Positions 17,465 to 56,420 of a stretch of DNA of 64,000 bases are shown one piece after another. Position 1 is the first letter of the stretch, and each line of letters begins with the position of its first letter. This stretch comes from Piscibacillus halophilus. GTDB taxonomy: Bacteria > Bacillota > Bacilli > Bacillales > Alkalibacillaceae. A program made the position numbers and the translations under genes. The stretch is from positions 1-64,000 of the forward strand of contig NZ_FOES01000010.1 of the NCBI RefSeq assembly GCF_900110685.1, given 5' to 3'. Under the pieces are notes generated by a model. The model was not told where the DNA came from and did not search any database. It was given only the letters and a program-made list of their open reading frames with translations.

Positions 17465-19147
17465 ATGGTTGAGAGAAATTTTTATACGGAAGATATTGTT
17501 TTACAACGAATCCTTAAAAAGCATTTGGGTCATGAGTTTTTTGATTATGCGGAAGAACGTTTGACAGAGTTTGGTGAGCGAGTAGCTGGTATCATCGATG
17601 ACCGTGCCAAACATACCGATCGGGAAGGGCAGCCTAAATTAATTAAGTACGACAAAATGGGCGACGATGTTTCAAAAGTTTGGGTAAATGAAGGGTATAT
17701 GCAAACGGTTAAGGAAACTTATAACACTGGTATTGTCGCTTATCCGCACAAAGAAATCCCTGAGCTTGGTCAGGTAGGAAATTACTTGTATTCTTACGCG
17801 CAAGGCTATTTATTATCTCAATCTGAACCTGGGTTTTACTGTCCAGTAACGTTAACGATGGCAACAGCCTATTTAATCGATCACTATGCGGATGGAGAAT
17901 TACGGGATCAATTTTTACCACATGTGATTTCAACAGGAGAGGTTGAACTTTATGAAGGGGCGACCTTTTTAACCGAACGCCAAGGAGGATCAGATGTCGG
18001 AGCTAATGTTGTTGAAGCCGTAAATGAGGGCGACAGTTACCGCTTATACGGTGAGAAGTACTTTGCGAGTAATGCTGGTATGTGTGGTGTTGCCATGGTG
18101 TTGGCTCGTATGGAAGGTGCTCCGTCCGGAACAAAAGGGTTGAGCTTATTTTTAGTGCCGTGGGAGGAAAATCGCGCGAATCAACAACTGAGTATTAGAC
18201 GACTAAAGGACAAATTGGGCGTGCGAGCCGTTCCTTCTGCGGAAGTTGAGTTTCAAGGGGCCAAAGCCTATTTAGTTGGGGACCCTAAGCAAGGTTTTAA
18301 ATACATGATGGAGGCGTTGAATCTTTCTAGAGTCTGTAATGCTGTCGCGTCTATCGGAATAATGCGTCGTGCTTATGTAGAGGCACGTGACTATGCCTTT
18401 AACCGTGAAGCATTTGGCAATAAACTGAATCATTATCCGATGGTTAAAGATACTTTAGTGAATATGCTTGCCAAGCTTGAAGTCGAGACGTATGCCACAT
18501 TTGATGTCGTCAACTTGTTTGATCAGGTTATGAATAAAGATGCGAATGTAACAGAAGAGGAACAAGCATTATTACGTCTATATATAGCTATTATGAAAAA
18601 AGAAACAGCTGAGCAAGCGATTCATTATTCGCATGAAGCGATTGAAATGCATGGTGGAAATGGCTTTATTGAGGACTTTGTAACTCCGCGACTGCTTAGA
18701 GATGCTCAAGTGTTAACGGTCTGGGAAGGGACAGCCAATATTTTAGGCCTTGAAGTGTTAAGGTTGTTAGAGAAATATCAAATACATGAATTATTTTTAC
18801 AAGATCTTGAAGCACGTTTGCGTCACGTAACGCCTAAGGCTCAGAAGTTGACGGACCCAATTAAAGAAAAAATGGAACGCCTTAAAGAAACGCTTGTTAA
18901 GCTTTCTCAAGCACCCGATGACGTTAAGCTGATGTATCCTAAAAAACTTGCGAAGGATATGAGTGATCTTTTTGAAGGAGTTGTGGCCTTAGAACAGATC
19001 GAAGAAGGCCTTACTTTTGAAAGAGACTTTGCAGTGGCAGAAGTATTTATTCATCAGACGTTTAGATCAAGCAAGTATAATCAAGAGCCGTTAGCTTTAA
19101 AATATTATGATTTAATCGTGAACCAACATCACCCTGTGTCGATCTAA
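17465..19147 (+). CDS. Acyl-CoA dehydrogenase, long AidB-like form
   Basis: A 560-residue flavoprotein, longer than the usual 380. An N-terminal extension (to about 80) precedes the acyl-CoA dehydrogenase core: the FAD/substrate loop EGATFLTERQGGSDVGAN, a middle beta-domain, and the C-terminal helical domain with REAFGNKLNHYP and IEMHGGNGFIEDF...WEGTANILGLEVLR. The extra C-terminal helices (about 440-560) resemble the AidB-type subfamily. It likely oxidises the acyl-CoA made by the preceding synthetase. It is the last gene of the three-gene operon, and the terminator overlaps its end. Confidence 0.9.
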   Translation: MVERNFYTEDIVLQRILKKHLGHEFFDYAEERLTEFGERVAGIIDDRAKHTDREGQPKLIKYDKMGDDVSKVWVNEGYMQTVKETYNTGIVAYPHKEIPELGQVGNYLYSYAQGYLLSQSEPGFYCPVTLTMATAYLIDHYADGELRDQFLPHVISTGEVELYEGATFLTERQGGSDVGANVVEAVNEGDSYRLYGEKYFASNAGMCGVAMVLARMEGAPSGTKGLSLFLVPWEENRANQQLSIRRLKDKLGVRAVPSAEVEFQGAKAYLVGDPKQGFKYMMEALNLSRVCNAVASIGIMRRAYVEARDYAFNREAFGNKLNHYPMVKDTLVNMLAKLEVETYATFDVVNLFDQVMNKDANVTEEEQALLRLYIAIMKKETAEQAIHYSHEAIEMHGGNGFIEDFVTPRLLRDAQVLTVWEGTANILGLEVLRLLEKYQIHELFLQDLEARLRHVTPKAQKLTDPIKEKMERLKETLVKLSQAPDDVKLMYPKKLAKDMSDLFEGVVALEQIEEGLTFERDFAVAEVFIHQTFRSSKYNQEPLALKYYDLIVNQHHPVSI

Positions 19148-19164
19148 GACACAGGGTTTTATTT
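19131..19164 (+). terminator. Terminator overlapping the acyl-CoA dehydrogenase stop codon
   Basis: ACCCTGTGTC and GACACAGGGT form a 10-bp stem; the stop codon TAA lies in the loop. A T-rich tail follows. Confidence 0.85.
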
Positions 19165-19167
19165 GAT

Positions 19168-19305
19168 TTGGCGAAAGAGGAGGCTTTTTTAGCGAAACCT
19201 TTTAACGAACTGGCGAAACCATTTTCAAGTTTAGCGAAAAAAAGAAGTCAATTGGCGAGAGTTAGTAAAGATTTAGCGAAACTTCATTCAAAATTGGCGA
19301 AATGA
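19168..19305 (+). repeat. 21-bp phased intergenic array A (core TTGGCGAAA/TTAGCGAAA)
   Basis: Seven copies of a nine-base core start at 19168, 19189, 19210, 19231, 19252, 19273 and 19294, every interval exactly 21 bp. The core alternates strictly between YTGGCGAAA-like and TTAGCGAAA, so the higher-order unit is 42 bp. The 12 bases between cores are not conserved. Because 21 is a multiple of three, one frame stays open (TTG 19168 to TGA 19303-19305) and reads as LAK-led heptads; I doubt it is a gene. The array begins 4 nt after a terminator. Confidence 0.85.
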
Positions 19306-19369: not shown

Positions 19370-20254
19370 TCATTCGGACACCTTTTTATTATATTGACCC
19401 GTGATATAAATTCCGATAAATATGAACAACATACCTATAATGAGGTTTGTGGTAATGGGTTCGCTCAATATCAAGTAGCTGGCCACAATGGCTGTTATCG
19501 GAATAATATATGCAACTGTTGCGGCGAACTCTGGGGTTCCGTTAATAATCATGTAATAAAGCAATACATGCGCCAGCCCAGAGCCAATTGTTCCTAAACC
19601 TAAAATAATAATTCCTGTATGGAAATCAATCATAGCGACATTTGGTAAATCATTCATAATTAATCCAATCAGTAAACCAACTAGTGAGGCAACAAATAAG
19701 GAAATCGTAATGGTCACAATTAAGTCTTCATGTTGAAGGTTTTTCTTCAAATATTGAGATCCAAAACCATAAAAAATAGTGGCTAATACCATCGTTCCAA
19801 TTCCGATAAAATCATGTCCGAACAGTTGGTGGATTTGAAATTCAGTTAATACAACAATTCCAAAAAAGCCTATAAGAATTCCAAACCATTGTCTTCTCAA
19901 TAATCTTTTCTTAAAAAATAAATATCCAATTAAGGCTGTAAATAAAGGGGTTAAGGCGTTAATGACAGAGGTCGTATTACTGTTGATGACAGTTTCGCTC
20001 CATGCAAGTAAGCCCCAAGGTATTCCTGCATTTAGAACACCTAAAATAACGAGGTGCTTGTAAGGAATCGGAGAGATTCTTTTACGGATTTTGATGAGGA
20101 AGATAGGTAGTAAAAAGAAGGATCCAAGAAAACATCTTAAAAATACCATCCCCCAGACTCCTGTCTCATCGACTGTCATTTTTATAAAAATAAATGTTAA
20201 TCCCCATATGATGCTTAAGCTAAGTAAGGCTAAGTATATTCTCATTTTATTCAC
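19370..20254 (-). CDS. DMT-superfamily transporter (EamA domains)
   Basis: A 294-residue membrane protein with ten predicted helices in two EamA repeats (about 5-135 and 150-285). The first helix has SLSIIWGLTFIFIKM and the repeat ends show ALTPLFTALIGYLFFKKRL and AYIIPITAIVASYLILSEPIT, the typical EamA signatures. Family members export amino acids, metabolites or drugs; no substrate can be assigned. The ATG is preceded by a weak AGGTG. It converges on the acyl-CoA operon, with repeat array A between them. Confidence 0.87.
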   Translation of the reverse strand: MNKMRIYLALLSLSIIWGLTFIFIKMTVDETGVWGMVFLRCFLGSFFLLPIFLIKIRKRISPIPYKHLVILGVLNAGIPWGLLAWSETVINSNTTSVINALTPLFTALIGYLFFKKRLLRRQWFGILIGFFGIVVLTEFQIHQLFGHDFIGIGTMVLATIFYGFGSQYLKKNLQHEDLIVTITISLFVASLVGLLIGLIMNDLPNVAMIDFHTGIIILGLGTIGSGLAHVLLYYMIINGTPEFAATVAYIIPITAIVASYLILSEPITTNLIIGMLFIFIGIYITGQYNKKVSE

Positions 20255-36412: not shown

Positions 36413-36517
36413 AACATGTCGATAGAACTTTCGAACATGTCCATGGAAATCGAAAACATGACGATAGAACTTTCGAACATGCCCATAGAAATCGAAAACA
36501 TGTCGATTGATTATTAA
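36413..36517 (+). repeat. 21-bp phased intergenic array B (core AACATG)
   Basis: Five copies of AACATG start at 36413, 36434, 36455, 36476 and 36497, every interval exactly 21 bp. The units alternate between a GATAGAACTTTCG type and a CATAGAAATCGAA type, so the higher-order period is 42 bp. One frame is open (ATG 36416 to TAA 36515) and reads as MSIE-type heptads. More degenerate relatives with TAGAA and AATAAAC continue to about 36593 at 20-23 bp spacing. It begins 15 nt after the fadE terminator. Confidence 0.85.
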
Positions 36518-38732: not shown

Positions 38733-38841
38733 TTCTTATCCAGAGAGGTGGAGGGAACTGGCCCTATGAAACCCAGCAACCATCGGGATTGTCCTGACAG
38801 GTGCTAATTCCAGCAATGATTTATTCATTGCAAGATAAGAA
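38733..38841 (+). ncRNA. SAM-I riboswitch (S-box), first of two
   Basis: P1 is TTCTTATC (38733-38740) with GATAAGAA (38834-38841). The S-box core follows in order: AGAGAGGTGGAGGGA, ACTGGCCCTATGAAACCCAG, CAACC, and the P4/junction ACAGGTGCTAATTCCAGCA. AAGAAAAG at the 3' side of P1 can instead pair with CTTTTCTT in the following terminator, which is the usual transcription-attenuation switch: with SAM bound the terminator forms. Confidence 0.95.
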
Positions 38842-38859
38842 AAGTGACGATGTTTTTCG

Positions 38860-38894
38860 ACTCTTTTCTTGCGCTTGCAGGAAAAGAGTTTTTT
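38860..38894 (+). terminator. Attenuator terminator of the first SAM riboswitch
   Basis: ACTCTTTTC and GAAAAGAGT pair across TTGCGCTTGCAG and are followed by five T. Confidence 0.88.
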
Positions 38895-38929
38895 AATGAA
38901 TGATAGAAAAATGATAAATACAAATAATA

Positions 38930-39036
38930 CTCTTATCGAGAGTGGTGGAGGGATTGGCCCTATGAAGCCCGGCAACCATCAGGGGAACCTGACAGGTGCT
39001 AAATCCAACAAAGCTTTGGGCTTTGAGAGATGAGAG
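38930..39036 (+). ncRNA. SAM-I riboswitch (S-box), second of two
   Basis: P1 is CTCTTATC (38930-38937) with GATGAGAG (39029-39036). The core reads GAGAGTGGTGGAGGGA, TTGGCCCTATGAAGCCCGG, CAACCATCAGG and GACAGGTGCTAAATCCAAC. Its loops differ in sequence from the first copy, but the core is intact. It has its own terminator, so the met operon leader contains two complete switches in series. Confidence 0.95.
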
Positions 39037-47549: not shown

Positions 47550-47680
47550 GCAAATAAAGTAAGTCAATTCGCAAATAAACTAAAAGAACTTCCAAATATA
47601 ATGAGAAAACTCGCAATTAGAATGAAGACTTTTGCAAATAAAACGATGATAGACGCAAATAGAGGGGGATACTTGCAAAT
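47550..47680 (+). repeat. 21-bp phased intergenic array C (core GCAAATAAA)
   Basis: Seven copies of GCAAAT or close variants start at 47550, 47571, 47592, 47613, 47634, 47655 and 47675; the first five intervals are exactly 21 bp and the last is 20. The third and fourth copies are CCAAATATA and GCAATTAGA. One frame is open through the array and reads as FANK-type heptads. It begins 20 nt after the sufB terminator. Confidence 0.85.
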
Positions 47681-47816
47681 TAAATTAAAAAGGAACAATT
47701 AATTATTAGAAAATTTGAAAGTATATCATGATTACTGTAAATAAATTGTTTGCTACTTTATAATAGAAAATTATGCTATTGTATAAATAGAGAAAAATTC
47801 AATAAGAGGGATCCAT

Positions 47817-56296: not shown

Positions 56297-56420
56297 TTGT
56301 CTAGTAAATAAACCATTTTTCAGAAAAAATTTAGAATTTGTCTACTAAAAATTTTGATTTGTCTAGTAAATTGAATATTTGACTAACATTTGCACAGAAA
56401 ACTTATGAAATGTCTAGTTA
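56297..56420 (+). repeat. Degenerate ~21-bp intergenic array D (core TTGTCTAGTAAA)
   Basis: GTCTAGTAAA or variants start at 56299, 56340 (GTCTACTAAA), 56361, 56381 (GACTAACA) and 56412 (GTCTAGTTAA); intervals are 41, 21, 20 and 31. A weaker TTCAGAAAAA near 56319 would fill the first gap. In the forward sense the core contains stop codons (TAG, TAA), so this array is not coding. It begins about 19 nt after a terminator, like the other three. Confidence 0.65.

Follow-up and report, generated by a model that had tools for sequence, protein, structure and literature searches.

The array of short direct repeats at positions 19168 to 19302 (plus strand) of the window, as we call the whole 64,000-nt stretch of DNA analyzed, is probably a multi-site recognition platform for one protein, NERD-A, in a system that would behave like REPIN-RAYT. 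This reading is built on the geometry of the arrays, their dispersal in the genome, the pairing of genes with arrays, the change of the core as the protein diverges and the presence of intact nuclease and zinc-ribbon residues.

A phased array between convergent genes

Array A consists of seven 9-bp cores, TTRGCGARA, separated by 12-bp linkers in an exact 21-bp register (core starts at 19168, 19189, 19210, 19231, 19252, 19273 and 19294). In order, the cores read TTGGCGAAA, TTAGCGAAA, CTGGCGAAA, TTAGCGAAA, TTGGCGAGA, TTAGCGAAA and TTGGCGAAA. The array is located between two convergent genes, one for a FadE-like acyl-CoA dehydrogenase (560 aa, 17465..19147, plus strand; recognized by its ORF and its orthologues) and one for an EamA-type transporter (294 aa, 19370..20254, minus strand; recognized as an ORF). 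Immediately before the array, at the 3' end of the acyl-CoA dehydrogenase gene, the sequence contains a terminator-like inverted repeat, CCCTGTGTC...GACACAGGG, with a T-rich tail (19129..19163, plus strand). On both strands the predicted RNA fold of array A is weaker than that of shuffled sequences (z of +1.04 and +1.48), and a DNA-level search detected no plasmid copies. Arrays with the A core were absent from the 60 relatives examined, so this particular core has no family-wide conservation.

A sequence-only reading of the same DNA had already described seven cores at exact 21-bp steps, which the core starts (19168-19294) bear out, and a G/A alternation from copy to copy, which we found to be strict at core position 3. 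Given four G and three A, however, strict alternation is expected by chance in 1 of 35 orders and carries little weight. The linkers, said to differ completely, do so within array A, but they show 50 to 75% position-by-position identity to the linkers of seven sister arrays located at other sites of the genome. The membership of array A in a dispersed nuclease-linked family had been overlooked.

Dispersed copies of the array

A pattern search for spaced core pairs in the source genome of the window (2.99 Mb, 83 contigs) found 84 pairs, nearly all of them within 15 A-core arrays. Exactly seven cores in perfect register were present in 13 of the 15; of the other two, C41c keeps seven cores but is out of register by 1 bp, and the degenerate C25b has six or seven. 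The arrays lie between genes or run into the end of one, in convergent, co-directional, divergent and antisense settings, and many adjoin terminators. Eight (C7, C25a, C35, C38, C39, C65, C78a and C78b) have homologous linkers, with 47 to 86% identity position by position, and flanks at background similarity, and must therefore have been copied as discrete units of ca. 155 bp. In another five (C15, C41a, C41b, C47 and C56), the linkers are at background similarity (0.26 to 0.36 between them) with the core and the copy number unchanged; here, core positions 4 to 7 (GCGA) have diverged by 0 to 11%, versus 52 to 78% in the linkers. Since cores have been kept in these old arrays after their linkers were randomized, the core appears to be under selection, and the near invariance of the core in all five supports the earlier proposal to this effect. 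As to a possible insertion sequence or MITE, the borders of C78a and C78b are located at about -12 and +10 of the array, and the position of array A is unoccupied in G001, a congener; no terminal inverted repeat or target site duplication was apparent by eye. At array borders, neither target site duplications nor inverted ends were seen, which counts against a REPIN-RAYT-like platform.

The 13 registered A-core arrays also bear on the alternation, which is strict in only two of them. Together with the lack of a 42-bp signal in the linkers, this indicates that alternation is not the key feature of the array. The sequence-only reading had favored a functional alternation, or the amplification of a 42-bp dimer followed by linker drift, and we consider both quite improbable. 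There is precedent for the idea in the two-unit superperiods that are clear in several arrays with unrelated cores (14 strictly alternating units at locus L302, a 40-bp superperiod at L263, and further cases at L205 and L198). In array A, however, units are as similar at even lags as at odd ones (p = 0.78), the alternation is missing from most sister arrays, and seven is an odd number. Moreover, an orthologous array of another family (E) has eight units in one genome and five in the other, a difference that does not correspond to two-unit steps.

The same arrays speak to a possible gene. The frame that would encode a heptad-repeat peptide (LAKxxxx) is open (frame +0) in array A and in 10 of the 13 registered sister arrays, but we rejected this reading, which has next to no credibility, as there is no excess of changes at the third codon position. 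The most variable linker position in paralogous arrays is codon position 2 (0.50 versus 0.24 and 0.31), nearly all cores encode Ala by GCG, without any change at the wobble position, and up to four stops interrupt the LAKxxxx frame of other arrays.

A constant geometry with diverse cores

Scans made without reference to any core gave 15 arrays of period 21 in 457 kb of the source genome and eight in 400 kb of G001, against zero or one for each other period from 12 to 45; by this measure, the register of array A goes far beyond what chance would give. In 20-kb stretches of the sampled genomes, there were 21 arrays of period 21 and eight of period 42 (a two-unit superperiod), with zero or one for the others. 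All the period-21 arrays of this survey belonged to members of the bacterial family, and none was found in the 20-kb stretches of 12 genomes of other families. The surroundings of dnaB at 80 named Bacillaceae loci (1.63 Mb) contained a single array. The cores are diverse at this constant geometry (TTRGCGAAA, TTAGATAATAAA, ACATGTCTATAGAA, GCAAATAAA, TTGTCTAGTAAA, CGAACAGTT and others). The most common copy number is seven (26 of 58 arrays), with a range of 4 to 21 cores beside some NERD genes, and in three species of one genus three consecutive seven-core modules (counted by eye) are found beside one NERD gene. That the number is not always seven is a point against the platform reading.

A neutral satellite that has a period of 21 by chance would agree with the presence of some units that are recent tandem copies (locus L057), but such an origin is most improbable. 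Period 21 is the only one that stands out in two genomes, the only addition from the family survey is its double, 42, and many cores share one geometry; the tight association with NERD genes described below refutes it.

Some arrays depart from the common geometry. NERD genes with period-20 arrays were found at L231, L253, L254, L263, L275, L300 and L303, the proteins at L253 and L254 having no zinc ribbon. In Ornithinibacillus halotolerans (L125, 19100-19640), a NERD gene is located beside a tandem array with a period of ca. 51 bp and GGTAACATAG cores in both orientations; the association of NERD gene and array is as elsewhere, and the geometry is different. At L205 (1536-2120, genome G009), TTGTTGAAT arrays are located beside arrays of the reverse complement, ATTCAACAA, and form with them a large inverted structure in which a 42-bp superperiod is clear.

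Pairing of arrays with NERD genes

Of the seven NERD genes in the source genome, six are stand-alone, and each of these is accompanied by an array no more than a few hundred bases away, with a core that varies between genes. Among these cores are TTAGATAATAAA, which characterizes the dispersed family E, and ACATGTCTATAGAA, that of a second array (B) in the window. NERD-A (355 aa, contig C25) is flanked by two A-core arrays, C25a and C25b, and in genome G005 another NERD gene is flanked by two TTCGACGGC arrays. Each repeat family is paired with a single NERD gene, which it adjoins. Two families in the source genome, C (GCAAATARA) and F (TGTACGTGA, L057, position 13671), weigh against the preferred reading, as no cognate NERD gene was found for either core in this genome.

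The pairing extends well beyond one genome. Among the Bacillales loci coding for a NERD protein with a zinc ribbon, 41 of 55 had an array of 20 or 21 bp within 800 bp, and none of the 55 had one with a period of 18 to 19 or 22 to 25 within the same distance. The background of random windows is 6% inside the family; outside it, 11 of 15 such loci had an array, versus 0.5% of random windows. NERD genes without the zinc ribbon had one in 2 of 25 cases (versus 41 of 55; Fisher p = 1.7e-8). The dispersed arrays show the same link: with a core match defined as r > 0.7, 37 of 52 in six genomes matched a NERD-flanking array of their own genome, where only one to six candidates were available, versus 17 of 52, mostly shared families, when the 35 to 40 candidates were foreign.

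Cores also change as the proteins diverge. The mean r between cores was 0.87 for NERD pairs with at least 70% identity, 0.51 for those between 50 and 70% and ca. 0.40, the background value, below 50%. Over all pairs, the rank correlation between protein identity and core similarity was weak and driven by the close pairs (Mantel r 0.10, ca. 2.5 SD above the null); it is small because most NERD pairs are distant. This overall weakness is an argument against the recognition of cores by their NERD proteins, as is the exception in genome G048, where a GATAATAAA core is found beside a NERD protein only ca. 31 to 39% identical to the others, NERD-E included.

The array-linked proteins are stand-alone, 300 to 390 aa long, and carry a C4 zinc ribbon. 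In the source genome, the six stand-alone genes match PF08378 at 65 to 79 bits (cut-off 22). Across 55 proteins, the active-site residues E74, D107, K122 and Q154 were present in 100% and E120 in 95%, and little or no variation is seen in the signature (G..GE, D, ExK, Q) or the four Cys; judging by these residues, both a PD-(D/E)xK nuclease site and the zinc ribbon look intact. Of the 61 Bacillales genomes sampled, 54 had NERD-domain matches, and the zinc-ribbon type is often present in several copies per genome. Searches of Pfam, NCBIfam and PADLOC with the array-linked proteins yielded nothing curated other than the NERD domain, and among solved structures there were only weak matches to the zinc ribbon. 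Membership in a defense system was considered and rejected, the similarity to PglW, MADS6 and MkoA being weak and confined to the NERD domain; the weak matches included NERD-containing kinases of the BREX and MADS defense systems. A phage origin was rejected as well: viral contigs contained no relatives of two NERD proteins, and phage records no relatives of NERD-E.

Stability and turnover

G001 has the two genes that surround array A in synteny but lacks the array itself (empty site). The NERD-E gene and its array share a common locus in the source genome and G003, with synteny between genera, and a FadE-linked NERD gene is conserved in G005, G014 and G018. One solo E-family array is found at the orthologous position in G007, with eight versus five cores. 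From the synteny, the empty site and this orthologous array, NERD genes look stable, while most of the solo arrays come and go and some are retained. A NERD-L235 family array at L330 (1677-1880) borders directly on the last ca. 25 codons of a gene whose intact form is found in G007 (L324, 594 aa, SgrR-like), which suggests a deletion junction; in the source genome, this array adjoins the solo E-family array.

These data bear on two rivals. The main one is a static regulatory or architectural role, in which NERD proteins would be regulators or nucleoid architectural proteins and the nuclease would not mobilize the arrays; those beside NERD genes would be autoregulatory operators, and the rest insulator-like sites. 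We regard this as possible, though clearly the less probable view. It would account for the maintenance of cores after the randomization of linkers, for the location of most sites near terminators and between convergent genes, for the solo array retained at an orthologous site between genera and for the fact that, outside the family, arrays are almost only found beside NERD genes, in many cases on the 5' side. It sits poorly with the eight A-core arrays copied as units with homologous linkers, the empty site in G001, the conservation of catalytic residues in nearly all NERD proteins and the occurrence of divergent and antisense settings.

The second rival is an LTR-like mobile unit, array-NERD-array, whose solo arrays would be the remains of recombination between direct arrays. 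The two flanking arrays do have the same orientation, the position of array A is empty in G001, and the array at L330 abuts a gene remnant, but we consider this reading unlikely, as each family has one NERD gene, no genome examined having several identical copies, the NERD-E and g5 NERD loci are at conserved positions, and no target duplications were seen.

Possible mechanism and comparison with known systems

Within the platform reading, the arrays would be the binding sites of cognate NERD nucleases, with about six NERD genes in the source genome, most of them having their own core and set of dispersed arrays. One protomer would occupy each core, every 21 bp, so that some seven subunits could assemble cooperatively side by side; 21 bp being two helical turns, all the sites would face the same side of the helix. 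NERD proteins may thus bind the cores, and their nuclease activity, together with host repair, may copy the arrays into other intergenic sites or gene borders. Selection on the cores of old arrays could act through a host role or through continued recognition by NERD.

The closest parallel is found in the REPIN-RAYT or REPtron systems, made up of TnpA_REP and REP repeats (PMC3116915, PMC8266576, PMC8049555). There, the RAYT transposase, present in a single copy and passed on vertically, duplicates dispersed REPINs (PMC8049555), and the HUH enzyme TnpA_REP acts on GTAG-tagged hairpins (PMC8266576). In both cases, a single-copy, vertically inherited gene of nuclease type is adjoined by its repeat, which has many dispersed extragenic copies, and separate repeat families each have their own gene. 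Vertical inheritance at stable loci is seen here for NERD-E (source genome and G003) and for the FadE-linked NERD gene, and a single-copy nuclease gene of this kind flanked by its own dispersed repeat is the reason why we propose a REPIN-RAYT-like behavior. The enzymes differ, an HUH/Y1 transposase there and a NERD PD-(D/E)xK fold with a zinc ribbon here: in six proteins, NERD was the only domain above the cut-off, with an E..D..ExK..Q signature. The repeats differ too, GTAG-tagged palindromes there and ca. seven phased 9-bp cores here, which are direct and have no RNA fold. As enzyme class and repeat type were both tested and neither agrees, the NERD-array system falls outside the REPIN-RAYT family.

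Iterons and partition centromeres are also arrays of direct repeats, of around 20 bp, to which copies of one protein bind next to each other. The spacing is similar here, and side-by-side binding would be a further likeness, but the arrays studied here have many dispersed chromosomal copies, a nuclease-fold partner and several core families per genome. CRISPR arrays, with direct repeats of ca. 23 to 50 bp and unique spacers, share short repeats and variable linkers with ours; we rejected this assignment given the 9-bp cores, the 21-bp period and the linkers common to dispersed copies, and no link to cas genes was seen. Other PF08378 proteins (BREX PglW, the MADS kinase, NERD-helicases and staphylococcal SmdA) have the NERD domain in common with the array-linked proteins, which differ in being stand-alone with a C4 zinc ribbon.

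None of the families or systems in the libraries consulted covers the combination of NERD protein and phased array. The open-access literature on NERD proteins with repeats and on 21-bp arrays in Bacillaceae contained no description, although subscription journals may differ. The dispersed arrays and the nuclease gene that appears to be their partner suggest an undescribed nuclease-plus-repeat system in relatives of Bacillus. The fuller claim, that NERD/zinc-ribbon proteins form a class that assembles side by side on arrays of ca. seven cores and propagates them, each protein with a core of its own, is to us about evenly balanced. A widespread group of orphan proteins gains a concrete, testable DNA target, with dozens of natural protein-core pairs for studying how NERD proteins read DNA, and the dispersed 20/21-bp arrays and spurious heptad ORFs are explained as one system. 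If the nuclease does copy the arrays, this would be a second, independent REPIN-RAYT-like solution with an unrelated enzyme.

Other arrays and features of the window

The window contains three more arrays, all on the plus strand. Array B (36414..36511) has five ACATGNCNATRGAA cores at 21 bp with alternating linkers (a 42-bp superperiod), and its core matches that of the array beside the NERD gene at L234 in the same genome (core r = 0.90). Array C (47550..47684), detected in the sequence scans on the 3' side of a terminator, has seven GCAAATARA cores, the last step being 20 bp, and relatives elsewhere in the genome at L046 and L048. Array D (56297..56420) is degenerate, with TTGTCTAGTAAA-like cores, and the intact family flanks the NERD gene at L310 in G001. 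This family is degenerate in the source genome both in the window and at L061 (18390), and a NERD gene with the D core is absent there, while G001 has 39 three-core family D matches in addition to the L310 gene flanked by D arrays; cores may decay once the partner NERD is lost. Two tandem SAM riboswitches, ca. 90 bp apart, were identified with Rfam at 38733-39036.
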